Positions 11,574-22,383 of a stretch of 33,165 nucleotides of DNA are shown here, piece after piece. The position numbers and the translations under genes were made by a program. A model generated the notes under the pieces. That model was not told the origin of the DNA, searched no databases, and saw only the letters and a program-made list of their open reading frames with translations. This DNA is from Romboutsia sp. (GTDB taxonomy: Bacteria; Bacillota; Clostridia; Peptostreptococcales; Peptostreptococcaceae): NCBI GenBank assembly GCA_017889265.1, contig JAGHEK010000056.1, forward strand, positions 1-33,165, given 5' to 3'. Positions within the stretch are counted from its first letter, which is position 1. Each line of letters begins with the position of its first letter.

Positions 11574-12542
11574 ATGTTAGGGATAACTGAATTAACTTAT
11601 ACAGCACTCATTTCATTTTTGATAGTTGTAATACTTGGTCCAATATTTATACCAATGCTTACTAAGTTTAAATTTGGTCAAACTGTAAGAAGTGATGGAC
11701 CAAAAAGTCATTTATCTAAAAATGGAACGCCTACAATGGGTGGAATACTTATGATAATAGCAATACTTATAACGGGTCTTACTAGAAGTAGAGTGGGGTC
11801 TGATTTACTAGTAGGACTTTTTTGCGTAGCAGGTTTTGGTTTAGTAGGATTTTTAGATGATTTTATAATAATAAAAAAGAAAAGGTCTTTAGGTCTTAGA
11901 GCTTGGCAAAAAATAGTTCTTCAGCTTGGAATAGCACTTTTCGTATCGTATTATCAATATAATCAATCAGCAAGTGCTCCTCAACTTATGGTACCGTTTA
12001 CTGATATAGTAATAAATGTTGGTCCATTATACGTACCGTTTATGACTTTTGTAATAGTAGCAACTGTAAATGCAGTAAATTTAACTGATGGGCTTGATGG
12101 ACTTGCATCTGGAATAACTTTAGTAGTTTCAACATTTTTTATGTTACTTGCATCTTATTCTGGAGTAGTAAATCAAGAGGTAGCAGTATTAGCAGCAGCA
12201 ACTGTTGGAGCTTGTCTAGGATTTTTAGGATTTAATTCATATCCTGCGAAGATATTTATGGGAGATACTGGGTCTATGGCATTAGGAGGGGCTGTAGTTT
12301 CGTTTGCAGTTTTAACTAACACAGTATTACTTATACCTTTAGTAGGTGGAATATATTTTGCAGAGGCTTTATCAGTTATAATACAAGTAACTGTTTATAG
12401 ATTAACTAGAAAAAGAGTTTTTAAAATGGCTCCTATACATCATCATTTTGAACAATGTGGTTGGCCAGAAACTAAAGTAGTATTTACTTTTTGGATAGTA
12501 ACTATAATACTTGCTTGGATAGGAATAATAGCAGTATTTTAG
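11574..12542 (+). CDS. mraY: Phospho-N-acetylmuramoyl-pentapeptide transferase
   Basis: MraY is the integral membrane enzyme that moves phospho-MurNAc-pentapeptide to undecaprenyl phosphate, making lipid I. The family motifs are all present: PTMGG near residue 53, FLDDF (93-97) with the two catalytic-site aspartates, NLTDGLDGLASG ending at residue 180, GFNSYPAKIFMGDTGSMALG, and APIHHHFE near the C-terminus. The length of 322 residues and about ten membrane segments are normal. GAAAGGAGAAT precedes the ATG, and murD follows after nine bases. Confidence 0.97.
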   Translation: MLGITELTYTALISFLIVVILGPIFIPMLTKFKFGQTVRSDGPKSHLSKNGTPTMGGILMIIAILITGLTRSRVGSDLLVGLFCVAGFGLVGFLDDFIIIKKKRSLGLRAWQKIVLQLGIALFVSYYQYNQSASAPQLMVPFTDIVINVGPLYVPFMTFVIVATVNAVNLTDGLDGLASGITLVVSTFFMLLASYSGVVNQEVAVLAAATVGACLGFLGFNSYPAKIFMGDTGSMALGGAVVSFAVLTNTVLLIPLVGGIYFAEALSVIIQVTVYRLTRKRVFKMAPIHHHFEQCGWPETKVVFTFWIVTIILAWIGIIAVF

Positions 12543-12551
12543 GGGGATATT

Positions 12552-13889
12552 ATGAAAAATGTATTGTTAATTGGTCTTGCCAAAACGGGAGTATCTACTA
12601 TAAAGTATTTGAGTAAAATGGGTTCAAACGTAGTAGTAAATGATATAAAAACTAAAGAAGATTTAAAGGAAATATTAGAAGATTTAAAAGAAATAGAAAA
12701 TATAGAGTACATATTAGGAAAACATATAGAAAATATAGAAAATATAGATTTGGTAGTAGTTTCTCCAGGTGTTCCACTTGATTTACCTTTTATAAAAAAT
12801 ATAAAAGAAAAAGTAGAAGTAATAGGTGAAGTTGAACTTTCTTATAGATTATCGAATTTACCTAAAATAATAGGTATAACTGGTACTAATGGAAAAACTA
12901 CAACGACCAGTTTAGTTTCTTCTATATTTAAAGAAGCTAAAGAAGATGTTTTTACGGTTGGTAATATAGGAAATCCTGTAATAGATACTGTTGACGTTGC
13001 TACAAAGGAGTCTGTATTAGTTACAGAACTTAGCAGTTTTCAGTTAGAAAGTATAGATACATATAAGCCTCATATAAGTGCCATACTTAATTTTAGCGAA
13101 GATCATTTAAATAGACATCATACTATGGAAGAATATATAAAAGCTAAATGTAATATATATAAAAATCAAGATGAAAATGATTACCTTATACTAAATTATG
13201 ATGATATATTAGTTAGAAATCTAAGAGATACTAAAGCTAAAAAGATATATTTTTCTTGTGATAGCATACTTGAAAAAGGTGTATATTTAGATGAAAATGA
13301 AGATATAATTATAAATATAGATAAAAAAATAAATTTAATGAATAAAAATGAATTAAAAATAAGAGGAAAACATAATGTTCAAAATGCTATGGCAGGAATA
13401 GCTATAAGTTATATTTATGGAATAGACGTTTCTATAATAAAAAACGCCTTAAAAAATTTCTCAGGTGTAGAGCATAGACAGGAATTGGTAAAAAATATAA
13501 ATGGAATTACTTTTATAAATGATTCAAAAGCTACTAATCCAGATTCTAGTATAAAAGCTATTAATTCATATGAAAATATAATATTAATAGCAGGTGGAAT
13601 GGATAAAGAAAATGATTTTGAAAATCTTTTAGAAAATGCAAAGGGTAGAGTTAAATCATTAGTATTACTTGGAGAAACTTCCCAAAAAATAAAAGATTTA
13701 GCATTAAAAAAAGGATTTGATGACGTAAATATAGTAGCTAATATGAAGGAAGCTGTTAGTATGTCTTATGAAAAGGCAAATGAAGGAGATATAGTTTTAC
13801 TATCACCTGCTTGTGCAAGTTGGGATATGTATAAAAGTTTTGAAGTAAGGGGTAGAGACTTCAAAGAAAATGTAAACAGTTTAAAATAA
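12552..13889 (+). CDS. murD: UDP-MurNAc-L-alanine--D-glutamate ligase
   Basis: This cytoplasmic Mur ligase adds D-glutamate to UDP-MurNAc-L-Ala. It has an N-terminal nucleotide-sugar binding domain (LIGLAKTGVST), the ATP motif IGITGTNGKTTTT at about residues 107-119, ELSSFQLES, LNFSEDHLNRH and the C-terminal SPACASWDMYKSFEVRGRDF. The length of 445 residues is normal. AGGGGGAT lies in the short gap after mraY. The next gene, spoVE, has its start 37 bases after the murD stop. Confidence 0.97.
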   Translation: MKNVLLIGLAKTGVSTIKYLSKMGSNVVVNDIKTKEDLKEILEDLKEIENIEYILGKHIENIENIDLVVVSPGVPLDLPFIKNIKEKVEVIGEVELSYRLSNLPKIIGITGTNGKTTTTSLVSSIFKEAKEDVFTVGNIGNPVIDTVDVATKESVLVTELSSFQLESIDTYKPHISAILNFSEDHLNRHHTMEEYIKAKCNIYKNQDENDYLILNYDDILVRNLRDTKAKKIYFSCDSILEKGVYLDENEDIIINIDKKINLMNKNELKIRGKHNVQNAMAGIAISYIYGIDVSIIKNALKNFSGVEHRQELVKNINGITFINDSKATNPDSSIKAINSYENIILIAGGMDKENDFENLLENAKGRVKSLVLLGETSQKIKDLALKKGFDDVNIVANMKEAVSMSYEKANEGDIVLLSPACASWDMYKSFEVRGRDFKENVNSLK

Positions 13890-13926
13890 ATCCTCTAAAT
13901 AATTGGGAATGGAGGTAATACTTTTT

Positions 13927-15054
13927 ATGCATACAGAAACTAAAAAAAGGTCTAATAAAAAAATAAAGAATGATTTTGATAGTGTGATTTTTTACACTAC
14001 GATGACATTGGTATTCATAGGAATCATCATGGTATTTAGTGCAAGTTATATTCAATCTTCATTTAAACATGGTGATTCCTATCATTTTCTTAAGAAAAAT
14101 TTAATATTTGCAATTTTAGGTTTTATATCTATGATGGTAGTATCTAATATTCATTATGAATTTTGGAAGAAAAATTCTAAAACTATATGTATAATTTCTG
14201 CTGTATTACTTCTTTTAGTTTTAACTCCACTTGGTATAAAATTAAATGGAGCAAGAAGATGGTTAGGAATAGGTTCTTTTACTGTTCAACCGGCAGAAAT
14301 CGCAAAGTTTGCAAGTATAGTTATTACGGCTAAGTTAGTAGAAAAAAAGTATCAAGATATAAAGTCTTTTAAAAAAGGGCTAATTCCTCTTCTGATTGTG
14401 CCTATGATTTTTTTTATACTTATAATGTTACAACCTAATATGTCAACTGCAGGTACTATAATATTAGTTACTTTCGTTATGATATTCGTTGCAGGAATGG
14501 ATATGAAGCTAGTTGTAGGGATGTTTTTCAGTGGGGTAGTACTTTTTTTGGCTCTAGCTTTAACGTCTCCATATAGATTAAAACGTGTGCTATCTTTTTT
14601 AGACCCATTTCAAGACCCATTAGGTAATGGATATCAAGTTATACAAGGTCTTTATGCACTTGGTTCTGGAGGGCTTTTTGGTATGGGACTAGGTAAAAGT
14701 CAGCAGAAATGGTTTTACATACCAGAACCACAAAATGATTTTATATTTGCTATAATAGGTGAAGAGTTAGGTCTAGTAGGTTGTACAGCTGTAATACTTA
14801 TTTTTGTACTTTTAGTTTATAGATGTGTAATAATTGCTTTAAGATGCCCAGATATATTTTCTTGTATGATGGTTATCGGAATAGGTGCACAAATAGGAAT
14901 ACAAGCAGCACTTAATATAGCAGTAGCCACTTCTTCTATGCCTGTTACAGGGGTTGCGCTACCTTTTATTAGTTATGGAGGGACTTCCCTTACTATATTA
15001 ATGAGTGCAATAGGTATAGTTTTAAACATTTCAAGACACGTCAAAATTAATTAA
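13927..15054 (+). CDS. spoVE: SEDS peptidoglycan glycosyltransferase SpoVE/FtsW
   Basis: This multispanning SEDS protein polymerises lipid II into glycan strands together with its cognate class B PBP, here most likely SpoVD. It has about ten membrane segments and the SEDS motifs GARRWLGIGSFTVQPAEIAK, FLDPFQDPLGNGYQ, NDFIFAIIGEELGLVG and FISYGGTSL. I chose ATG 13927 because GGAGGT (13911-13916) lies ten bases upstream. Two in-frame earlier starts (TTG 13903, ATG 13909) would overlap that site. The protein is then 375 residues with a short basic N-terminus. SpoVE and FtsW cannot be separated by sequence alone; being the only SEDS gene in the cluster it may serve division, sporulation or both. 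Confidence 0.9.
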   Translation: MHTETKKRSNKKIKNDFDSVIFYTTMTLVFIGIIMVFSASYIQSSFKHGDSYHFLKKNLIFAILGFISMMVVSNIHYEFWKKNSKTICIISAVLLLLVLTPLGIKLNGARRWLGIGSFTVQPAEIAKFASIVITAKLVEKKYQDIKSFKKGLIPLLIVPMIFFILIMLQPNMSTAGTIILVTFVMIFVAGMDMKLVVGMFFSGVVLFLALALTSPYRLKRVLSFLDPFQDPLGNGYQVIQGLYALGSGGLFGMGLGKSQQKWFYIPEPQNDFIFAIIGEELGLVGCTAVILIFVLLVYRCVIIALRCPDIFSCMMVIGIGAQIGIQAALNIAVATSSMPVTGVALPFISYGGTSLTILMSAIGIVLNISRHVKIN

Positions 15055-15069
15055 CAGGAGTGAAATTAA

Positions 15070-16269
15070 ATGAAAGTTTTATTATCTGGTGGAGGTACTG
15101 GAGGACACGTTTATCCAGCAATCGCCATAGCAAACAAGATTAAAGAAGAAAATCCAGATGCAAAAATTCTATTTGTTGGTACTGAAAAAGGTATAGAAGC
15201 AGAGATTGTACCTAAGTATGGATATGATTTTAAGACTGTAACAGTTCAAGGATTTAGAAGGAAGGTAGATTTTGAAAATGTAAAAAGAGTTTTTAAACTT
15301 TTTAAAGGTCTTGAAGAATCAAGAAGTATAGTAAAAAAGTTTAAACCAGACATAGTAATAGGTACAGGTGGATATGTTAGTGGACCTGTTTTATTCAATG
15401 CATCTTTAAAAAATATACCGACAATAGTTCACGAACAAAACTCTTTTCCTGGGGTTACTAATAAAATTTTATCAAAAGTAGTTACTAAAGTGCTTACTAC
15501 TTTTGAAGATGCAAAACAAAGATTTCCAGAAAAATCTCAAGATAAAATAGTTTTTACAGGAAATCCAGTAAGAAAAGAAATACTACTTACTAAAAAAAAT
15601 ATAGCAAGAAGAAAACTTGGAATAAGTGAAGATAAAAAGATGATTCTATGCTATGGAGGAAGTGGTGGTTCAAAAAAAATTAATGAAGCCATAAAAGTAG
15701 CTATAAACGATTTAGTAAAAGAAGATATAGCTTTCATAATAGCCACAGGAAAAGTATATTATGATGAATTTGTAAAAGATATAGAAAATATTACTTTAAA
15801 ACCATATCAAAAAGTAGTTCCATATCTAGATGATATGGCAAATGCATTAGGAGCTAGTGATTTAGTAATAGGAGGTGCAGGAGCAACTTCTATATCTGAA
15901 ATAACTGCACTTGGTAAACCTTCTATAATAATTCCTAAAGCATATACCTCAGAAAATCATCAAGAATATAATGCAAAAAGTGTTGAAAATAAAGGTGCAG
16001 GAATTTGTATACTAGAAAAAGATTTAACTGGTGAAGTTTTAAGTAATTCAATATTTAAGATTTTAGGAGATAATAATTTACTAAGTGAAATGTCTGAAAA
16101 AAGTAAAGAAATAGGAACGCCTAAAGCTATTGATAAAATATATGAGGAAATACTTAAAATTTATAATGAAAATAATAGTAAAAAAGAAACAGTAGTTGAA
16201 GAAATAGATGAAGTAGAAAATAAAGAAGAGAAAAAAGAAGAAAAAGTAATAGGAATAAAGAAAAAGTAA
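15070..16269 (+). CDS. murG: Lipid II synthase MurG with acidic/basic C-terminal tail
   Basis: MurG is a peripheral membrane GT-B glycosyltransferase that adds GlcNAc to lipid I, making lipid II. The N-terminal GGGTGGHVYPA is at residues 7-17, with IGTGGYVSGP, HEQNSFPGVTN, FTGNPVR and GGSGGSKKINE following. The C-terminal half has GGAGATSISEITALGKPSIIIP, the UDP-GlcNAc site. The catalytic fold appears to end near residue 364, where most MurG proteins stop. Here about 35 further residues follow, almost all Lys and Glu. AGGAGTG precedes the ATG. Confidence 0.96.
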   Translation: MKVLLSGGGTGGHVYPAIAIANKIKEENPDAKILFVGTEKGIEAEIVPKYGYDFKTVTVQGFRRKVDFENVKRVFKLFKGLEESRSIVKKFKPDIVIGTGGYVSGPVLFNASLKNIPTIVHEQNSFPGVTNKILSKVVTKVLTTFEDAKQRFPEKSQDKIVFTGNPVRKEILLTKKNIARRKLGISEDKKMILCYGGSGGSKKINEAIKVAINDLVKEDIAFIIATGKVYYDEFVKDIENITLKPYQKVVPYLDDMANALGASDLVIGGAGATSISEITALGKPSIIIPKAYTSENHQEYNAKSVENKGAGICILEKDLTGEVLSNSIFKILGDNNLLSEMSEKSKEIGTPKAIDKIYEEILKIYNENNSKKETVVEEIDEVENKEEKKEEKVIGIKKK

Positions 16270-16275
16270 CATATA

Positions 16276-16329
16276 CCCCCTAGATAACATAAATTAAAAT
16301 AGAATTTATATTATCTAGGGGGATTTTTT
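16276..16329 (+). promoter_or_regulatory. Terminator-like hairpin that contains the murA ribosome binding site
   Basis: The 20 bases at 16276-16295, beginning CCCCCTAGATAA, pair with 16303-16322, ending TTATCTAGGGGG. There is one mismatch and a 7-base loop. ATTTTTT follows and the murA ATG comes immediately after, at 16330. The structure has every feature of an intrinsic terminator. The only plausible Shine-Dalgarno sequence for murA, AGGGGG, is the base of the 3' arm. When folded the hairpin should both stop transcription and hide the ribosome binding site. Confidence 0.85.
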
Positions 16330-17586
16330 ATGGGTAAATATATAGTAAAAAATGGACAAAAAATAGAAGGAACTTTAGATATAAGGGGAGCTAAAAATTC
16401 TATTTTACCCATTATAGCTGGGTCTATCTTAAATGAAAATATAAGTATTATCCATAATGTAGCAGATATATCAGATGTTCATATTATGATAAAAATTCTT
16501 GAAAGTGTAGGATGTAAAATAAAATATGAAAATGGTACTTTAGTTGTTGATAGTTCAAATATAGTTTCTTGTGATATAAATGAAGAGTATGTAAATAAAA
16601 TGAGGTCATCTATAATAGTAATGGGGGCTATGATTGGACGATTAGATTATATGAAAATAGGTCATCCTGGAGGGTGCAAAATAGGGAAAAGACCAATAGA
16701 TTTACATTTAGAAGGTCTTAGAAAACTTGGTGTTGAAATAACAGAAAGTGAAGGATTTATACATTGTAATAAAAAAGAATTAAAGGGATCTACAATAGTT
16801 TTGGATTTTCCTTCAGTTGGAGCTACTGAAAATATAATGTTAGCATCAGTAAAAGCAAATGGAATAACTAAAATAATAAATCCTGCAAAAGAACCTGAAA
16901 TAGAGGATTTAGCTAATTTTTTAAATAAAATGGGGGCAAAAATTAGTGGAGCGGGAACTAATTTAATTAAGATTGAAGGAGTAAAAAAATTAAATAAAGT
17001 AGAACATACAGTAATACCAGATAGAATAGCAATAGGCACTTATATGGTAGCGAGTGCTATGACTGGTGGCAAGTTAGAAGTTAAAAATGTTATCCATTCT
17101 CATATGGACCCTGTATATAAAGTTTTTTCTTGTTGTGGATGTGATATCAAGTATTTAGATAATAAGGTTATTTTATTACCAACAAGAAAAATAAAATCAA
17201 TGGAATTAGTTAAAACTTTACCTTATCCAGGATTTCCAACAGATATGCAATCTCAAATTATGGCTTTAATGAGTATATCAGATGGTGAAACTATATTTAA
17301 TGAGACTATATTTGAAAATAGATTTATGCACGTTAAAGAACTAATAAAAATGGGGGCTAATATAGAAATAATAGATAAGAATACTTGTTTAGTAAAAGGT
17401 GTTGAAAAACTTTATGGAAATAATGTTGTATCTTCGGATTTAAGGGGAGGAGCTAGCCTTGTTTTAGCAGGATTAGTAGCAGAAGGTGAAACTGAGATAT
17501 CTAATATTTATCATATTGAAAGAGGATATGAAAAGTTTGAATACGTTTTAAGAAGTCTAGGAGCTAATATAAAAAAAGAACTTTAA
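16330..17586 (+). CDS. murA: UDP-N-acetylglucosamine 1-carboxyvinyltransferase
   Basis: MurA carries out the first committed step of peptidoglycan synthesis, joining the enolpyruvyl group of PEP to UDP-GlcNAc. The active-site cysteine is residue 116 in GGCKIGKRPIDLHLEGL, so the enzyme should be fosfomycin-sensitive in principle. RGAKNSILPIIAGS near residue 19, PYPGFPTDMQ and the C-terminal HIERGYE are family signatures. The length of 418 residues is normal. The start codon follows a strong hairpin that includes its ribosome binding site. In Bacillus the gene between murG and divIB is murB; here it is murA. Confidence 0.96.
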   Translation: MGKYIVKNGQKIEGTLDIRGAKNSILPIIAGSILNENISIIHNVADISDVHIMIKILESVGCKIKYENGTLVVDSSNIVSCDINEEYVNKMRSSIIVMGAMIGRLDYMKIGHPGGCKIGKRPIDLHLEGLRKLGVEITESEGFIHCNKKELKGSTIVLDFPSVGATENIMLASVKANGITKIINPAKEPEIEDLANFLNKMGAKISGAGTNLIKIEGVKKLNKVEHTVIPDRIAIGTYMVASAMTGGKLEVKNVIHSHMDPVYKVFSCCGCDIKYLDNKVILLPTRKIKSMELVKTLPYPGFPTDMQSQIMALMSISDGETIFNETIFENRFMHVKELIKMGANIEIIDKNTCLVKGVEKLYGNNVVSSDLRGGASLVLAGLVAEGETEISNIYHIERGYEKFEYVLRSLGANIKKEL

Positions 17587-17617
17587 TGATTATAAAAATA
17601 TTTTTGTAGGGATATTA

Positions 17618-17671
17618 ATGAAAAAATTGTATTTAATAAATATATTACTAATGAGGAGAGATTTGATTTGA
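17618..17671 (+). CDS. Possible 17-codon leader ORF coupled to divIB
   Basis: ATG at 17618 follows GTAGGG with six bases between, and opens a short frame that encodes MKKLYLINILLMRRDLI. Its TGA stop (17669-17671) overlaps the divIB TTG start (17668-17670) in the sequence TTGA. This arrangement is typical of translational coupling. The peptide is not recognised; the open frame is short enough to be chance. Confidence 0.3.
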   Translation: MKKLYLINILLMRRDLI

Positions 17672-18390
17672 AAAAGTTAAACGTTGGAGGAATAACTATA
17701 ATTTTTAGCATTTTTTTGATATTTTCGATAGGAAGTTATTCAATACTAAAAAGTGACTTATTTAATAGCAAAAAAGTAGTTATAGTAGGAAATAATAGAA
17801 TAACTGATGATGATATTTTAGATAAATTAGAAATAAGGGACGATAAAAATATATTTATGTATAAAATATCCGATATGGAAGAAAAAATAATAAAAAATCC
17901 TTATATAGAAAGTATTGAAATAAAAAGAAAATTACCAGATACTTTTAATATATCGGTAAAAGAAAAAGAAGTTTTCGGTTTATTAAAGTATGATGATAAT
18001 TATTGTTATATGGATTCTAATGGCGAATTTATAGAGAGTATAAAAGATATTTCCGAAGAAGAAAATTCTGTATTGGTAGTTGACATTAAATATGATATAA
18101 TAAAGGGTAAACTTGAATTTATTGATGAGGAAAGTAAAAAAAAATTGCTTTATTTGATTGAATGTATAAAAGATGAAAGTTTAAATAAAAAAATAAAAAA
18201 AATAGATTTAACTGATGAATATTTAGTAAAAATTCAAACTATAGATGATATAGAAATACTGTTAAATAAAGATAATTTAGGATATGATATCAGTAGAATT
18301 AGTTCTATTTTAGTAGATTTACAAAGCAGTAACAAAAAAGGTGGTACGTTAGATTTATCCAAAGGAACTTATGCTATTTACAAATCATAA
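17668..18390 (+). CDS. divIB: Cell division protein DivIB/FtsQ
   Basis: This is a bitopic divisome protein with a short cytoplasmic N-terminus, one membrane segment (about residues 8-28), an extracytoplasmic POTRA domain and a beta domain. The POTRA region starts LFNSKKVVIVGNNRITDDDI, and the FtsQ-type motif NPYIESIEIKRKLPDTF follows. The protein is 240 residues. The start is TTG: GAGGAGAG (17653-17660) lies seven bases upstream and no in-frame ATG gives a better start. It holds the FtsL/DivIC complex in the septum. It is the last gene before the 260-base gap in front of ftsZ. Confidence 0.88.
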   Translation: MKKLNVGGITIIFSIFLIFSIGSYSILKSDLFNSKKVVIVGNNRITDDDILDKLEIRDDKNIFMYKISDMEEKIIKNPYIESIEIKRKLPDTFNISVKEKEVFGLLKYDDNYCYMDSNGEFIESIKDISEEENSVLVVDIKYDIIKGKLEFIDEESKKKLLYLIECIKDESLNKKIKKIDLTDEYLVKIQTIDDIEILLNKDNLGYDISRISSILVDLQSSNKKGGTLDLSKGTYAIYKS

Positions 18391-18650
18391 ATAAAATTTA
18401 GATATTTTCTAACAAAAAGTTATAAAAAAGCTTGAAAAATAGTGCTAAGTAAAAGTAAAATAATATAGAACGAATATTTGTTGTATATGACAATTTATAT
18501 ATTATTATTACAAAAATAATATTAAAAAAGGGAAAAAACTTTTTTCGTGGAATAATTAATAGATGATAATAAAATGATAAATACCATAAAAGAATGTCTT
18601 TTTTTGGTTCAAATACATTTAGATAAAACACAAATAAGGAGGGTTACATA
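18391..18650 (+). promoter_or_regulatory. AT-rich gap upstream of ftsZ
   Basis: These 260 bases hold no convincing gene. ftsZ probably has its own promoter here; the best candidate, TTGTTG (18478-18483) and TATTAT (18500-18505) with 16 bases between, is weak at the -35. An imperfect hairpin at about 18590-18615 (ACCATAAAAGA paired with TCTTTTTTTGGT) lies shortly before the strong ftsZ ribosome binding site AAGGAGGG. Confidence 0.35.
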
Positions 18651-19769
18651 ATGTTTGATTTTGATATAGAAAATGACAGTTTTGCTAAAATTAAGGTAAT
18701 TGGTGCTGGTGGCGGAGGAAACAATGCTGTTAATAGAATGATAGAAGCTCAATTAAAAGGCGTTGAGTTTATAGCAGTTAATACAGATAAACAAGCATTA
18801 CACATATCAAAAGCTGAGCACAAAATCCAAATAGGAGAAAAGCTAACTAGAGGATTAGGTGCAGGTGCTAATCCTGATGTTGGAAAAAGAGCAGCAGAAG
18901 AAAGTAAAGATGAAATAATAAAAGTTTTACAAGGTGCAGATATGGTTTTTGTTACTGCTGGAATGGGTGGAGGAACAGGAACTGGTGCTGCTCCAGTTAT
19001 AGCTCAACTTGCAAAGGAAATGGGAATATTAACGGTTGGTGTTGTTACTAAGCCTTTCATATTTGAAGGTAAAGTTAGAATGAAGAATGCTGAAAATGGT
19101 ATAATAGAACTTAAATCTAAAGTTGATACTTTAATAACTATACCAAATGAAAGATTACTTCAAATCGTTCAAAGAAATACTAGTATGACAGAAGCTTTCT
19201 CGATAGCTGATGATGTTTTAAAACAAGGTATTCAATCTATATCAGACCTTATAGCAGTACCAGGTCTTATAAACTTAGACTTTGCAGACGTTACTTCTGT
19301 AATGAAAGAAAAAGGTATGGCTCATATGGGTATAGGTAATGCTAGTGGAGAAAATAGAGCAATAGAAGCTGCCAAAGAAGCTATACAATCGCCACTTCTT
19401 GAAACTTCTATAAAAGGAGCTAAAGGAGTTTTACTTAACGTAACTGGTGGAGGAAACTTAGGATTACTAGAAATAAATGAAGCATCTACATTAGTTCAAG
19501 AATCTTGTGACCCAGAAGCTAATATAATATTTGGGGCATCTATAAGACCAGAACTAGAAGAAGAAATAAGAATAACTGTAATTGCTACGGGATTTGATGA
19601 AAATCAAAAGAATGAGATTGTTATTGAACAAAAGCCAGTTATAAAACAACAAAAAGTAGAAACTGTTAAACCAAAAGAAGAAGTTGTTGAAGTAAAAGAA
19701 GAAGTAAAAAGAAACGACCCAATAGAAGACGATATGGAAATACCAACATTCTTAAGAAGAAGAAGATAG
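18651..19769 (+). CDS. ftsZ: Cell division GTPase FtsZ
   Basis: FtsZ is the tubulin-like GTPase that forms the Z ring. The nucleotide-binding [13 protein letters not shown] starts at residue 18, the tubulin signature GGGTGTGA is at 106-113, and the T7 synergy loop [11 protein letters not shown] follows. After the globular core (to about residue 320) there is a Lys/Glu/Val-rich linker and the conserved C-terminal peptide [13 protein letters not shown], which binds membrane anchors. The length is 372 residues. AAGGAGGG precedes the ATG. No ftsA is directly upstream, which is common in clostridia. A terminator follows, making ftsZ a unit of its own. Confidence 0.98.
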
Positions 19770-19780
19770 AATTTTTTGGA

Positions 19781-19806
19781 AGAAACCTTTATAGGTTTCT
19801 TTTTTT
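19781..19806 (+). terminator. Terminator after ftsZ
   Basis: AGAAACCT (19781-19788) and AGGTTTCT (19793-19800) form a perfect 8-bp stem with a 4-base loop, followed by six more T. Confidence 0.92.
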
Positions 19807-19939
19807 GTAAAAAATACTTTTATCAATAAATTATAACAAATAAAAATGGATAAAAATATTGAATTAGTAAATAAAAAACTGAAAAATAATATTTTCTGTA
19901 AATTTATATTATAAAATTATTAGTTATTTATTATAAAAA

Positions 19940-19972
19940 ATGACATAAAAAATTTTTTTATATATGTATAAT
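19940..19972 (+). promoter_or_regulatory. Putative spoIIG-type promoter with 21-base spacer
   Basis: ATGACA (19940-19945) and TATAAT (19967-19972) lie 21 bases apart, upstream of spoIIGA. Normal SigA spacing is 16-18. The Bacillus subtilis spoIIG promoter is known for a 22-base spacer and needs Spo0A-P to fire. A clear Spo0A box (TGTCGAA type) was not found nearby, so the regulator is inferred from the spacing and gene context only. Confidence 0.45.
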
Positions 19973-19997
19973 AAGTATAAAAGAAGGGGGAGTTTTA

Positions 19998-20801
19998 ATG
20001 TATATAGAGTATTACATTATAGAAAACTTGCTCATAAATTATATATTAATAACTTGCACATCTGCTATTTCAAAAAGATACACTCCTTTTAGTAAAAAAT
20101 TAATAGGTTCTATAATAGGTTCTATATATTCAGTTTTATATATTTTCAAAGAATTTGAAATATTATTTACCATACCATTTAAAATACTTATAATGAGCGC
20201 AATAATACTAATAGTTTTTGGATATAGAAATATTAGAGATTACATAAAGATATCTATAATATTTTATTTGGTGAATGGATTTATATCTGGAAGTACGTTT
20301 TTTATAATATATTTAACTGGAATTAAACATAGCAAAATATCTTTTATAATAATATGTGTTTATATAAGTTGTGAACTTTTAAAATATATTTATAAAGATA
20401 TAAAAATGATTAGATATATGGAAACTATGAAAAAAAATATAAAAGTGAGTTTATGTGGGGACATTTTTGAGTGTGTTTGTTTAGTAGATAGTGGAAATTT
20501 ATTAAAAGACCCTATAAGTAATGACGATGTTGTAATACTTAGTGCAAAAAAATTAAATAATTTAGGACTTGATATTGATACAAATAATATAAATAAATCT
20601 TTGGAATTGCTTGATAAAAGGTATTTAAATAGAGTTAGAATAATACCTTATAAAAATATATCAAATAGTAATATGATACTTGGTTTAAAAGCAGATTATA
20701 TTCAAATTGGGGAAAATAAAATAAGTAATATAGTTTTAGGTATAACTAATTTTGATGAAAATGAGTATGATGCTATTTTAAGTCCAAGTATACTGCAATA
20801 A
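19998..20801 (+). CDS. spoIIGA: Pro-sigma-E processing peptidase SpoIIGA
   Basis: SpoIIGA is a membrane aspartic protease that cleaves pro-SigE in the mother cell after a signal from the forespore (SpoIIR in Bacillus). The N-terminal half has about five membrane segments, starting [19 protein letters not shown]. The C-terminal half is the protease domain, with the catalytic aspartate 164 in [12 protein letters not shown]. The C-terminal NIVLGITNF and [10 protein letters not shown] match the family. At 267 residues it is a little shorter than the Bacillus protein. GGGGGAG precedes the ATG. sigE, its substrate, starts ten bases after the stop. Confidence 0.93.
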
Positions 20802-20811
20802 GGGGGATAAT

Positions 20812-21528
20812 ATGGTTATAAAAAAACTTATGAACAAAGTGATACTATTATTAATAAAACTTAAAATAATATCACCGAAAGGAGTTTATTATATGGGAGG
20901 AAGTAATGTATTACCACCTCCTTTAACTCAAAAAGAGGAAGTTGAACTTCTAAAAAGATTAGAAAATGATGAAAGTATAAAACAGACACTTATAGAAAGA
21001 AATTTAAGACTTGTAGTTTACATATCTAGAAAGTTTGAAAACACAGGAATTGACATAGAGGATTTAATATCAATAGGTACTATTGGACTTATAAAAGCTG
21101 TAAATACTTTTAATTTAAGTAAAAATATAAAACTTGCAACTTATGCATCAAGATGTATTGAAAATGAAATTTTGATGTATCTTAGAAAAAATAGTAGAAA
21201 AAAAGCAGAAGTTTCATTTGATGAACCTTTAAACGTTGATTTAGACGGTAATGAGCTTTTACTTTCTGATATTTTAGGAACTGATAATGATGAAATATAT
21301 AAAGTTATAGAAGAAGAAATAGATAGAGATTTGTTGGTTATGGCACTTGATAGTTTATCAGATAGAGAAAAACAAATTATGGAACTAAGATTTGCTCTAA
21401 AAACTAAAGGTCAGGAAAAAACTCAAAAAGAAGTAGCTACTATGCTTGGAATATCTCAGTCATATATATCAAGACTTGAGAAAAAAATAATATCAAGATT
21501 AAAAAGAGAAATAAAAAAGTTTGTATAA
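20812..21528 (+). CDS. sigE: Sporulation sigma factor SigE (pro-form)
   Basis: SigE directs early mother-cell transcription. Residues 1 to about 27 form the hydrophobic/basic pro-sequence that holds the protein inactive at the membrane. The processing region is [15 protein letters not shown] (residues 24-38). Region 2 ([56 protein letters not shown]) and region 4 ([34 protein letters not shown]) are complete. The length is 238 residues. ATG 20812 with GGGGGATAAT upstream gives the full pro-sequence. There is also an internal ribosome binding site before Met28. No terminator separates it from sigG. Confidence 0.95.
20877..20895 (+). promoter_or_regulatory. Internal ribosome binding site and ATG at the SigE processing site
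   Basis: GAAAGGAG (20877-20884) lies eight bases before the in-frame ATG 20893-20895, which is codon 28 of sigE. Spacing and sequence equal the best ribosome binding sites in this window. Initiation here would give a protein beginning [11 protein letters not shown], that is, SigE without its pro-sequence. Whether it is used is unknown; the SD-like bases are also the Lys-Gly-Val codons. Confidence 0.45.
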
Positions 21529-21533
21529 AAAAA

Positions 21534-21597
21534 TTTCTTAAAAGTATAAAAATATATTATATGTAAATAATCCCATATAAATAAAACTTTTAAGAGA
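21534..21597 (+). promoter_or_regulatory. sigG promoter flanked by an inverted repeat that covers the ribosome binding site
   Basis: A SigF/SigG-like promoter is seen as GTATA (21544-21548), 14 bases, then GTAAATAAT (21563-21571), close to the forespore consensus GYWTA and GGNRANAAT. Around it, TTTCTTAAAAGT (21534-21545) can pair with ACTTTTAAGAGA (21586-21597) over 12 bases with one G-U pair. The 3' arm overlaps the start of the sigG ribosome binding site GAGAGGA (21594-21600). The stem is AU-rich with a 40-base loop, so it is only moderately stable. Confidence 0.5.
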
Positions 21598-21609
21598 GGA
21601 CTGAAAAGT

Positions 21610-22383
21610 ATGCAAATTAATAAAGTTGAAATCTGTGGAGTTAATACATCTGAACTTCCGGTTATAAAAAATAGTGAAATGACTGAACTTCTTTTGAAAA
21701 TAAAATCGGGAGACGAAGATGCTAGACAACAGTTTGTTAGAGGAAATTTAAGGCTTGTTTTAAGTATCATACAAAAGTTTAATAATAGGGGTGAAAATAT
21801 AGATGACCTATTTCAAATAGGGTGTATAGGACTTATAAAAGCTATTGATAATTTTGATTTAAGTCAAAATGTAAGATTTTCAACTTATGCAGTTCCTATG
21901 ATTATAGGAGAAATAAGAAGATACTTAAGAGATAATAATCCTATAAGGGTTAGTAGGTCCTTAAAAGATATTGCATATAAAGCCTTGCAAGTAAGAGAAA
22001 GATTAGTTAGAAATAATTCAAAAGAACCGACAGTAGGAGAAATTGCAAGAGAATTAGAACTTCCTCTTGAAGATGTTGTTATGGCTCTTGATGCGATACA
22101 AGACCCTGTATCTTTATTTGACCCTGTATATCAAGATAATGGAGATGCGATATTTGTAATGGATCAAGTGCAAGACAAAAAAGATACTGATGAAAATTGG
22201 TTACAAGAAATTACTTTAAAAGAAGCTATAAAAAAATTAAATGCAAGAGAAAGATTAGTACTTGATTTAAGATTTTATAAGGGAAGGACTCAAATTGAGG
22301 TGGCTGATGAAATAGGTATATCTCAGGCGCAGGTATCTAGAATAGAGAAAAATGCCCTAAAGAATATGAAAAAACATATATAA
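21610..22383 (+). CDS. sigG: Forespore sigma factor SigG
   Basis: SigG directs late forespore transcription. The N-terminal segment MQINKVEICGVNTSELPVIK is typical of SigG. Region 2 (RGNLRLVLSIIQKFNNRGEN, DLFQIGCIGLIKAIDNFDLS, FSTYAVPMIIGEIRRYLRD), region 3 (PTVGEIARELELPLEDVVMA) and region 4 (LNARERLVLDLRFYKGRTQIE, GISQAQVSRIEKNALK) are complete. The length is 257 residues. GAGAGGA precedes the ATG by nine bases. It follows sigE by 81 bases and seems to have its own forespore promoter as well as possible read-through from spoIIGA-sigE. Confidence 0.96.
   Translation: MQINKVEICGVNTSELPVIKNSEMTELLLKIKSGDEDARQQFVRGNLRLVLSIIQKFNNRGENIDDLFQIGCIGLIKAIDNFDLSQNVRFSTYAVPMIIGEIRRYLRDNNPIRVSRSLKDIAYKALQVRERLVRNNSKEPTVGEIARELELPLEDVVMALDAIQDPVSLFDPVYQDNGDAIFVMDQVQDKKDTDENWLQEITLKEAIKKLNARERLVLDLRFYKGRTQIEVADEIGISQAQVSRIEKNALKNMKKHI

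Follow-up and report, generated by a model that had tools for sequence, protein, structure and literature searches.

A conserved hairpin that may lock murA on read-through mRNA in Peptostreptococcales, and an overlapping candidate mother-cell promoter that would bypass it

The question raised by the murG-murA junction in the 33,165-nucleotide stretch of Romboutsia sp. DNA analysed here (contig JAGHEK010000056.1, hereafter the window) is how murA can be translated from an mRNA in which its Shine-Dalgarno (SD) sequence is folded into a strong hairpin. A reading of the letters without database searches (the sequence-only reading) had already taken this hairpin to be a genuine control point. The answer that we favour, with a probability of roughly 0.72, is that an RNA lock holds murA silent on the read-through mRNA of the dcw cluster, and that a promoter used in the sporulating mother cell bypasses this lock for cortex synthesis. 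The parts of the putative lock are the following.

16276..16322, + strand: hairpin that would lock the murA SD on read-through mRNA, as judged by folding, the cost of opening the SD and shuffling of the spacer
16276..16287, + strand: anti-SD 5' arm (CCCCCTAGATAA), lying within the promoter spacer, identified from the fold and from compensatory changes in relatives
16317..16322, + strand: murA SD (AGGGGG) at the end of the 3' arm, the sole SD candidate

The hairpin is made up of 12 bp, one C·A mismatch, 7 bp and a 7-nt loop, and is followed directly on its 3' side by ATTTTTT and then by the murA ATG at position 16330. It had been described as a 20-bp stem with one mismatch; the hairpin itself was confirmed, and the count was corrected to 19 pairs plus the mismatch. 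Folding of the region, which had been suggested as a check, showed a structure far stabler than shuffled sequences, with a minimum free energy of -24.5 kcal/mol (91 nt) against -12.5 ± 2.9 kcal/mol (z -4.1; none of the 200 shuffles was equally stable). Opening the region from -16 to -6 of murA would cost 21.6 kcal/mol, whereas no more than 10.5 kcal/mol was computed at the 27 other open reading frame starts tested in the window. Hence the earlier claim that the only SD candidate of murA lies in the stem, and is sequestered there, holds.

The same reading had found no promoter that fits between murG and murA, and this part did not stand. A sigma-K-type sequence, AC-N17-CATAAATT, spans positions 16269-16295 (AC-N17-CATAAATTA, 16269-16296, with one more base), and its spacing and bases are invariant in relatives. 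Its predicted elements are these.

16269..16270, + strand: -35 element AC of the sigma-K-type promoter, invariant in 30 distinct family sequences
16288..16295, + strand: -10 element CATAAATT (pattern CATANNNT) at the top of the 5' arm, with CATA and T invariant and at a fixed distance from AC
about 16302, + strand: predicted transcription start, placed by promoter geometry 6 nt past the -10 element and within the apical loop

The comparative set consisted of the regions upstream of dcw-type murA genes in 34 genomes of the window's family and in 20 genomes from other families of its order; together with the loci L005-L007 it gave 54 distinct upstream regions. The pattern AC-N16/17-CATANNNT, which is the sigma-K consensus, was present in 53 of these 54, no more than 150 nt ahead of murA, as against 1.2 expected from dinucleotide shuffles, and it was kept in 19 of the 20 members of a set thinned by similarity, the sole exception being L124, which reads AATAGTAT. 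Between the -35 and the -10 elements of the 30 family sequences the invariant columns are A-C-A, two C residues of the anti-SD, CATA and the T of CATANNNT, and no insertion or deletion has occurred there, though junctions are anywhere from 60 to 122 nt long. Members of the window's family have a spacer of N17; in the other families of the order it is N16, and ACACCT doubles there as -35 element and anti-SD. The AC meets the murG stop or lies beyond it, with the anti-SD inside the spacer and the -10 element atop the 5' arm. A scan of positions 12000-20000 with the sigma-A consensus gave 46 matches against 48.7 expected from shuffles, that is, no excess. One further match to AC-N17-CATANNNT overlaps the ftsZ start codon (positions 18628-18654) and probably arose by chance.

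A start in the apical loop would yield an mRNA without the anti-SD arm, and the predicted promoter transcript would lack the whole 5' arm. Computed folding shows that the lock is lost on this shorter transcript: over the 54 regions, opening the SD is predicted to cost 11.6 kcal/mol on average on the read-through RNA and 2.4 kcal/mol on the promoter transcript, and the predicted probability that the SD is unpaired is higher on the promoter transcript in all 54. From these computed opening costs and accessibilities, the read-through dcw message should be locked and the sporulation message open. No start-site map for Paeniclostridium sordellii turned up in the literature searched.

The pairing of the SD is conserved in relatives, which bears out the proposal of a genuine control point. 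The promoter segment accounts for more than 80% of the predicted SD pairing in 45 of the 54 distinct upstream regions and for 46-70% in the remaining ones. The partner segment lies up to ~120 nt upstream, and in most relatives it starts a few to tens of bases after murG. The type of SD has switched with the pairing kept, a CCCC(C/T)-type arm facing GGGGGG in the family and a CACCT-type arm facing GGAGGTG in the other families. Covariation was assessed in the 12-bp helix of 19 distinct order-level sequences, with the arms anchored independently of structure. In this alignment 95.6% of the cells were paired, as against 40-55% when the partner was slid, and 19 cells carried double changes, compared with 6.7 in shuffles, a number that none of 500 shuffles reached. 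When only the spacer was shuffled, in the thinned set, opening the SD cost 5.7 kcal/mol on average instead of 13.3 kcal/mol, and the real value exceeded all 50 shuffles in 17 of 20 cases. Relatives devoid of conserved pairing had been named as the outcome that would speak against a control point; the opposite was found, namely pairing conserved with compensatory changes. On these comparisons, the existence of a conserved lock and promoter is strongly supported.

In the window species, the G+C-rich stem followed by ATTTTTT could also be read as an attenuator or intrinsic terminator that separates murA from murG, and termination after murG had been proposed for the folded RNA. The T-run, however, has 6 residues in the window and 5 in one congener and in L103; other relatives mostly have 1-4, those outside the family 1-3, and the strongest selection falls on the SD pairing and the promoter bases. 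Since the U-run is confined to the window's genus, termination is not the conserved property, and we consider this explanation very unlikely. The sigma-A scan of positions 12000-20000 flagged the hairpin as terminator-like on the minus strand only, and no competing antiterminator stem was found, in agreement with the earlier inspection.

A conserved structure that sequesters the SD ahead of a committed-step enzyme, with conserved ACATA motifs, might likewise be a leader that senses a metabolite or a protein (a riboswitch, a thermometer or the site of an RNA-binding protein). Against this, an Rfam scan of the window at gathering cut-offs gave 0 matches, the apex of the hairpin is free to vary in length and sequence, and the ACATA blocks are explained by promoter elements at fixed DNA spacing, and we consider a sensing leader very improbable.

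Translational coupling deserves more weight. Here a ribosome at the end of murG would have to unwind the base of the hairpin before the SD could open, and the output of MurA would be set to that of MurG during growth. The murG stop lies ~6 nt from the arm in the window and in nearly all family members, within the ribosome footprint, and murA frequently begins with a weak start codon (TTG), a trait of coupled genes. Nevertheless, the murG stop and the promoter are separated by as few as 2 and as many as about 73 nt in the order, and by 33 nt in L085, itself a family member, so that a fixed short distance between stop and lock holds only in the window's family; the invariant AC-N16/17-CATANNNT is also left unexplained by coupling. 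In Lachnospirales the same pattern is present in 15 of 18 murA loci, about 53-67 nt upstream, and the upstream gene, where read, is ftsW and not murG (open reading frames recognised by eye). The promoter would therefore belong with murA, not with murG. Given the variable stop distance and the ftsW neighbour, coupling to murG is less likely to be the main function, though the stop in the window's family is near enough to allow some of it; we regard this explanation as unlikely. In the Bacilli murA loci scanned the pattern was absent, apart from one site with off-consensus spacing.

Returning to the lock with its own promoter, the sigma factor involved has to be considered. Passages of PMC3789822 give AC as the -35 element of sigma-K in C. 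difficile and dpaA as a sigma-K-dependent gene. As positive control, the dpaA upstream regions of relatives carried AC-N17-CATATTGT in 8 of 8 cases, a calibration of 8 sequences from a single genus (g4), to which the good-score matches were limited. No promoter of the AC-N16/17-CATANNNT form was seen in the spoIVA (sigma-E-type) upstream regions of relatives. The window's own genome has a sigK gene (G000:C40:6251-6880, 312.8 bits, above the cut-off). The murG-murA promoter is thus most simply, and most likely, a sigma-K promoter, as judged from its sequence. The same architecture might instead be driven by sigma-E, or by both mother-cell sigma factors, and act at engulfment rather than in the cortex. 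This would suit B. subtilis MurAB, which acts at engulfment (PMC9600426), and the genome of L124, where no separate sigK match was seen, though a split sigK can hide. The -35 element is, however, AC at 16-17 bp, a spacing at which no sigma-E motif ATA occurs, above all in order-level sites of the ACACC type; we hold the sigma-E version to be doubtful.

The two genes of the junction are as follows.

15070..16269, + strand: murG (TIGR01133, 313 bits), whose stop TAA (16267-16269) overlaps the AC of the -35 element
16330..17586, + strand: murA, the dcw-linked paralogue (TIGR01072, 517 bits), starting with ATG at 16330 and keeping the catalytic loop PGGC, PGGCKIGKRPID

An inactive or remnant murA was ruled out by the catalytic PGGC loop and by an NCBIfam equivalog score well above the cut-off. 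A second murA, a possibility raised by the sequence-only reading, was found elsewhere in the genome (G000:C5:2171-3409), between glmS and spoIID; it is 49% identical, has the ordinary SD AAGGAG and groups in the tree with the B. subtilis locus copy. All family genomes with a single detected murA keep a copy that scores as the glmS/spoIID type, except for a lower-scoring one in G019, which identifies the dcw copy as the extra one. The dcw-type murA (E <= 1e-150) was found in 34 of 71 family genomes, that is, in 34 of the 55 with matches to mother-cell sigma factors and in 0 of the 16 without, a link that is inflated by shared ancestry. In three loci from genomes without sigE or sigK matches (L125, L126 and L127; G034-G036), the second murA has a different neighbourhood: no murG precedes it in the stretch read, its SD is an ordinary one of AAGGTGAT type, and neither hairpin nor promoter is present.

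We propose the following mechanism. On the read-through mRNA, the CCCCC segment just past the murG stop would pair with the murA SD and block initiation. The overlapping DNA carries AC-N17-CATANNNT, which would be recognised by a mother-cell sigma factor, most likely sigma-K. Transcription would then begin in the apical loop, leaving the anti-SD arm out of the mRNA and the SD open. During growth, the cell would rely on the MurAA-type murA next to glmS and spoIID, with the dcw-linked murA kept low; once a mother cell sporulates, the dcw murA would be switched on and supply UDP-N-acetylmuramic acid (UDP-MurNAc) precursors for the cortex. We infer the sigma-K identity, the start site, the repression in growing cells and the role in the cortex. 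More tentatively, the murA of the dcw operon may be in effect dedicated to sporulation across Peptostreptococcales, silenced in growth by an RNA lock that shares its bases with a sigma-K promoter, with the promoter as the older layer and the lock added or strengthened later.

Loci at which the dcw murA is decaying or lost were also seen. In L131 (G046, possibly also G047) a decaying murA remnant follows murG, the hairpin is intact and the CATA of the -10 element has become TATA. In L129 and L130, from genus g4, the dcw murA has been lost and the promoter is gone, and a stable hairpin (ACCCCTAATTTA / TAAATTAGGGGT, with CCCC/GGGG arms) persists after murG.

Several points weigh against a locked murA released by a sporulation promoter. 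The persisting hairpin of L129 and L130 is unexplained by it, and is now perhaps a 3'-end or terminator structure. The kinship of the relatives makes the shuffle tests overstate significance. In the window's family the murG stop adjoins the arm, and terminating ribosomes could partly melt the lock. The -10 sequences are common to sigma-E and sigma-K, which leaves some probability to the sigma-E version considered above. Among the family genomes, 21, with those of L129 and L130 among them, have mother-cell sigma matches and no dcw murA, so the dcw murA is not needed for sporulation as such. A survey across Firmicutes found the number of MurA paralogues uncorrelated with sporulation (PMC9600426), and the sporulation link is therefore claimed for the window's family only. 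Finally, the lock is strong in some Lachnospirales loci and weak or absent in several, promoter and lock thus being separable; from these sequences, a tight lock characterises the window's order.

The genome carrying the window is a 1.45-Mb draft, and the hairpin sequence is single-copy in it, by which a mobile or repeated element was ruled out. The dcw cluster runs in the window in the order mraY, murD, spoVE/ftsW, murG, murA, a weak ftsQ match, ftsZ, spoIIGA, sigE and sigG. On the 3' side of ftsZ (19760-20010) there is a strong hairpin (AAGAAACCTTTATAGGTTTCTTTTTTT), likely a terminator ahead of spoIIGA, and the SD region of spoIIGA has the second highest opening cost of the window (10.5 kcal/mol).

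Arrangements of this kind have been described. In phage T4, long read-through transcripts of gene e (also of I-TevI and soc) hide the SD in a hairpin, and the late promoter lies in the DNA for the 5' strand of that hairpin; late transcripts lack this strand and are translated, and the arrangement is conserved in related phages (PMC3014915, PMC2988022). The junction studied here resembles gene e in the pairing of the SD on read-through RNA, in a promoter in or before the 5' arm and in an SD accessible on the promoter transcript, here by sequence and folding. It differs in that murA is a cellular metabolic gene in a cell-division operon, probably served by a host sporulation sigma factor instead of a phage late one. 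In B. subtilis, a hairpin of 20 or more bp is proposed to block translation of sigG (spoIIIG) from read-through mRNA and cannot form on mRNA from its own promoter (PMC5942855). Like sigG, murA would be a sporulation gene downstream of another operon with a read-through hairpin, but sigG has a forespore sigma-F/G promoter and encodes a regulator, whereas murA would have a mother-cell promoter and encodes a peptidoglycan enzyme. At the sigE-sigG junction of the window itself (21512-21610) a long hairpin was observed; its 3' arm extends to the SD region of sigG, and its loop contains CATATAAA. This hairpin possibly follows the same lock-and-bypass plan as B. subtilis sigG.

As for the pathway, passages of two studies report that sigma-K raises murAA, murB, murC and murF in B. 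subtilis (PMC12251134) and glmM, glmS and murE in C. difficile (PMC3789822); those passages describe no hairpin lock, and the target here would be a dedicated dcw-linked murA paralogue. B. subtilis MurAB is described as a second MurA that is not essential but supports both engulfment and the synthesis of cortex (PMC9600426, PMC12251134), in a sigma-K-independent pathway, whereas the dcw-linked murA belongs to a different lineage, perhaps the MurAC clade. No account of the lock and promoter between murG and murA was found in the literature searched. By its sequence, the murG-murA junction would add to the locks of the T4 gene e and sigG type, in a cellular metabolic gene.

If true, this would explain the presence of a second MurA inside the essential division operon of clostridial genomes, and would show how one gene of a co-transcribed essential operon escapes translation in the growth phase and yet serves development, with the constraints of a promoter and of an RNA structure placed in shared bases and maintained throughout an order. 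Fosfomycin targets MurA; which murA copy serves growth and which serves spores would therefore matter for the reading of essentiality and drug data.
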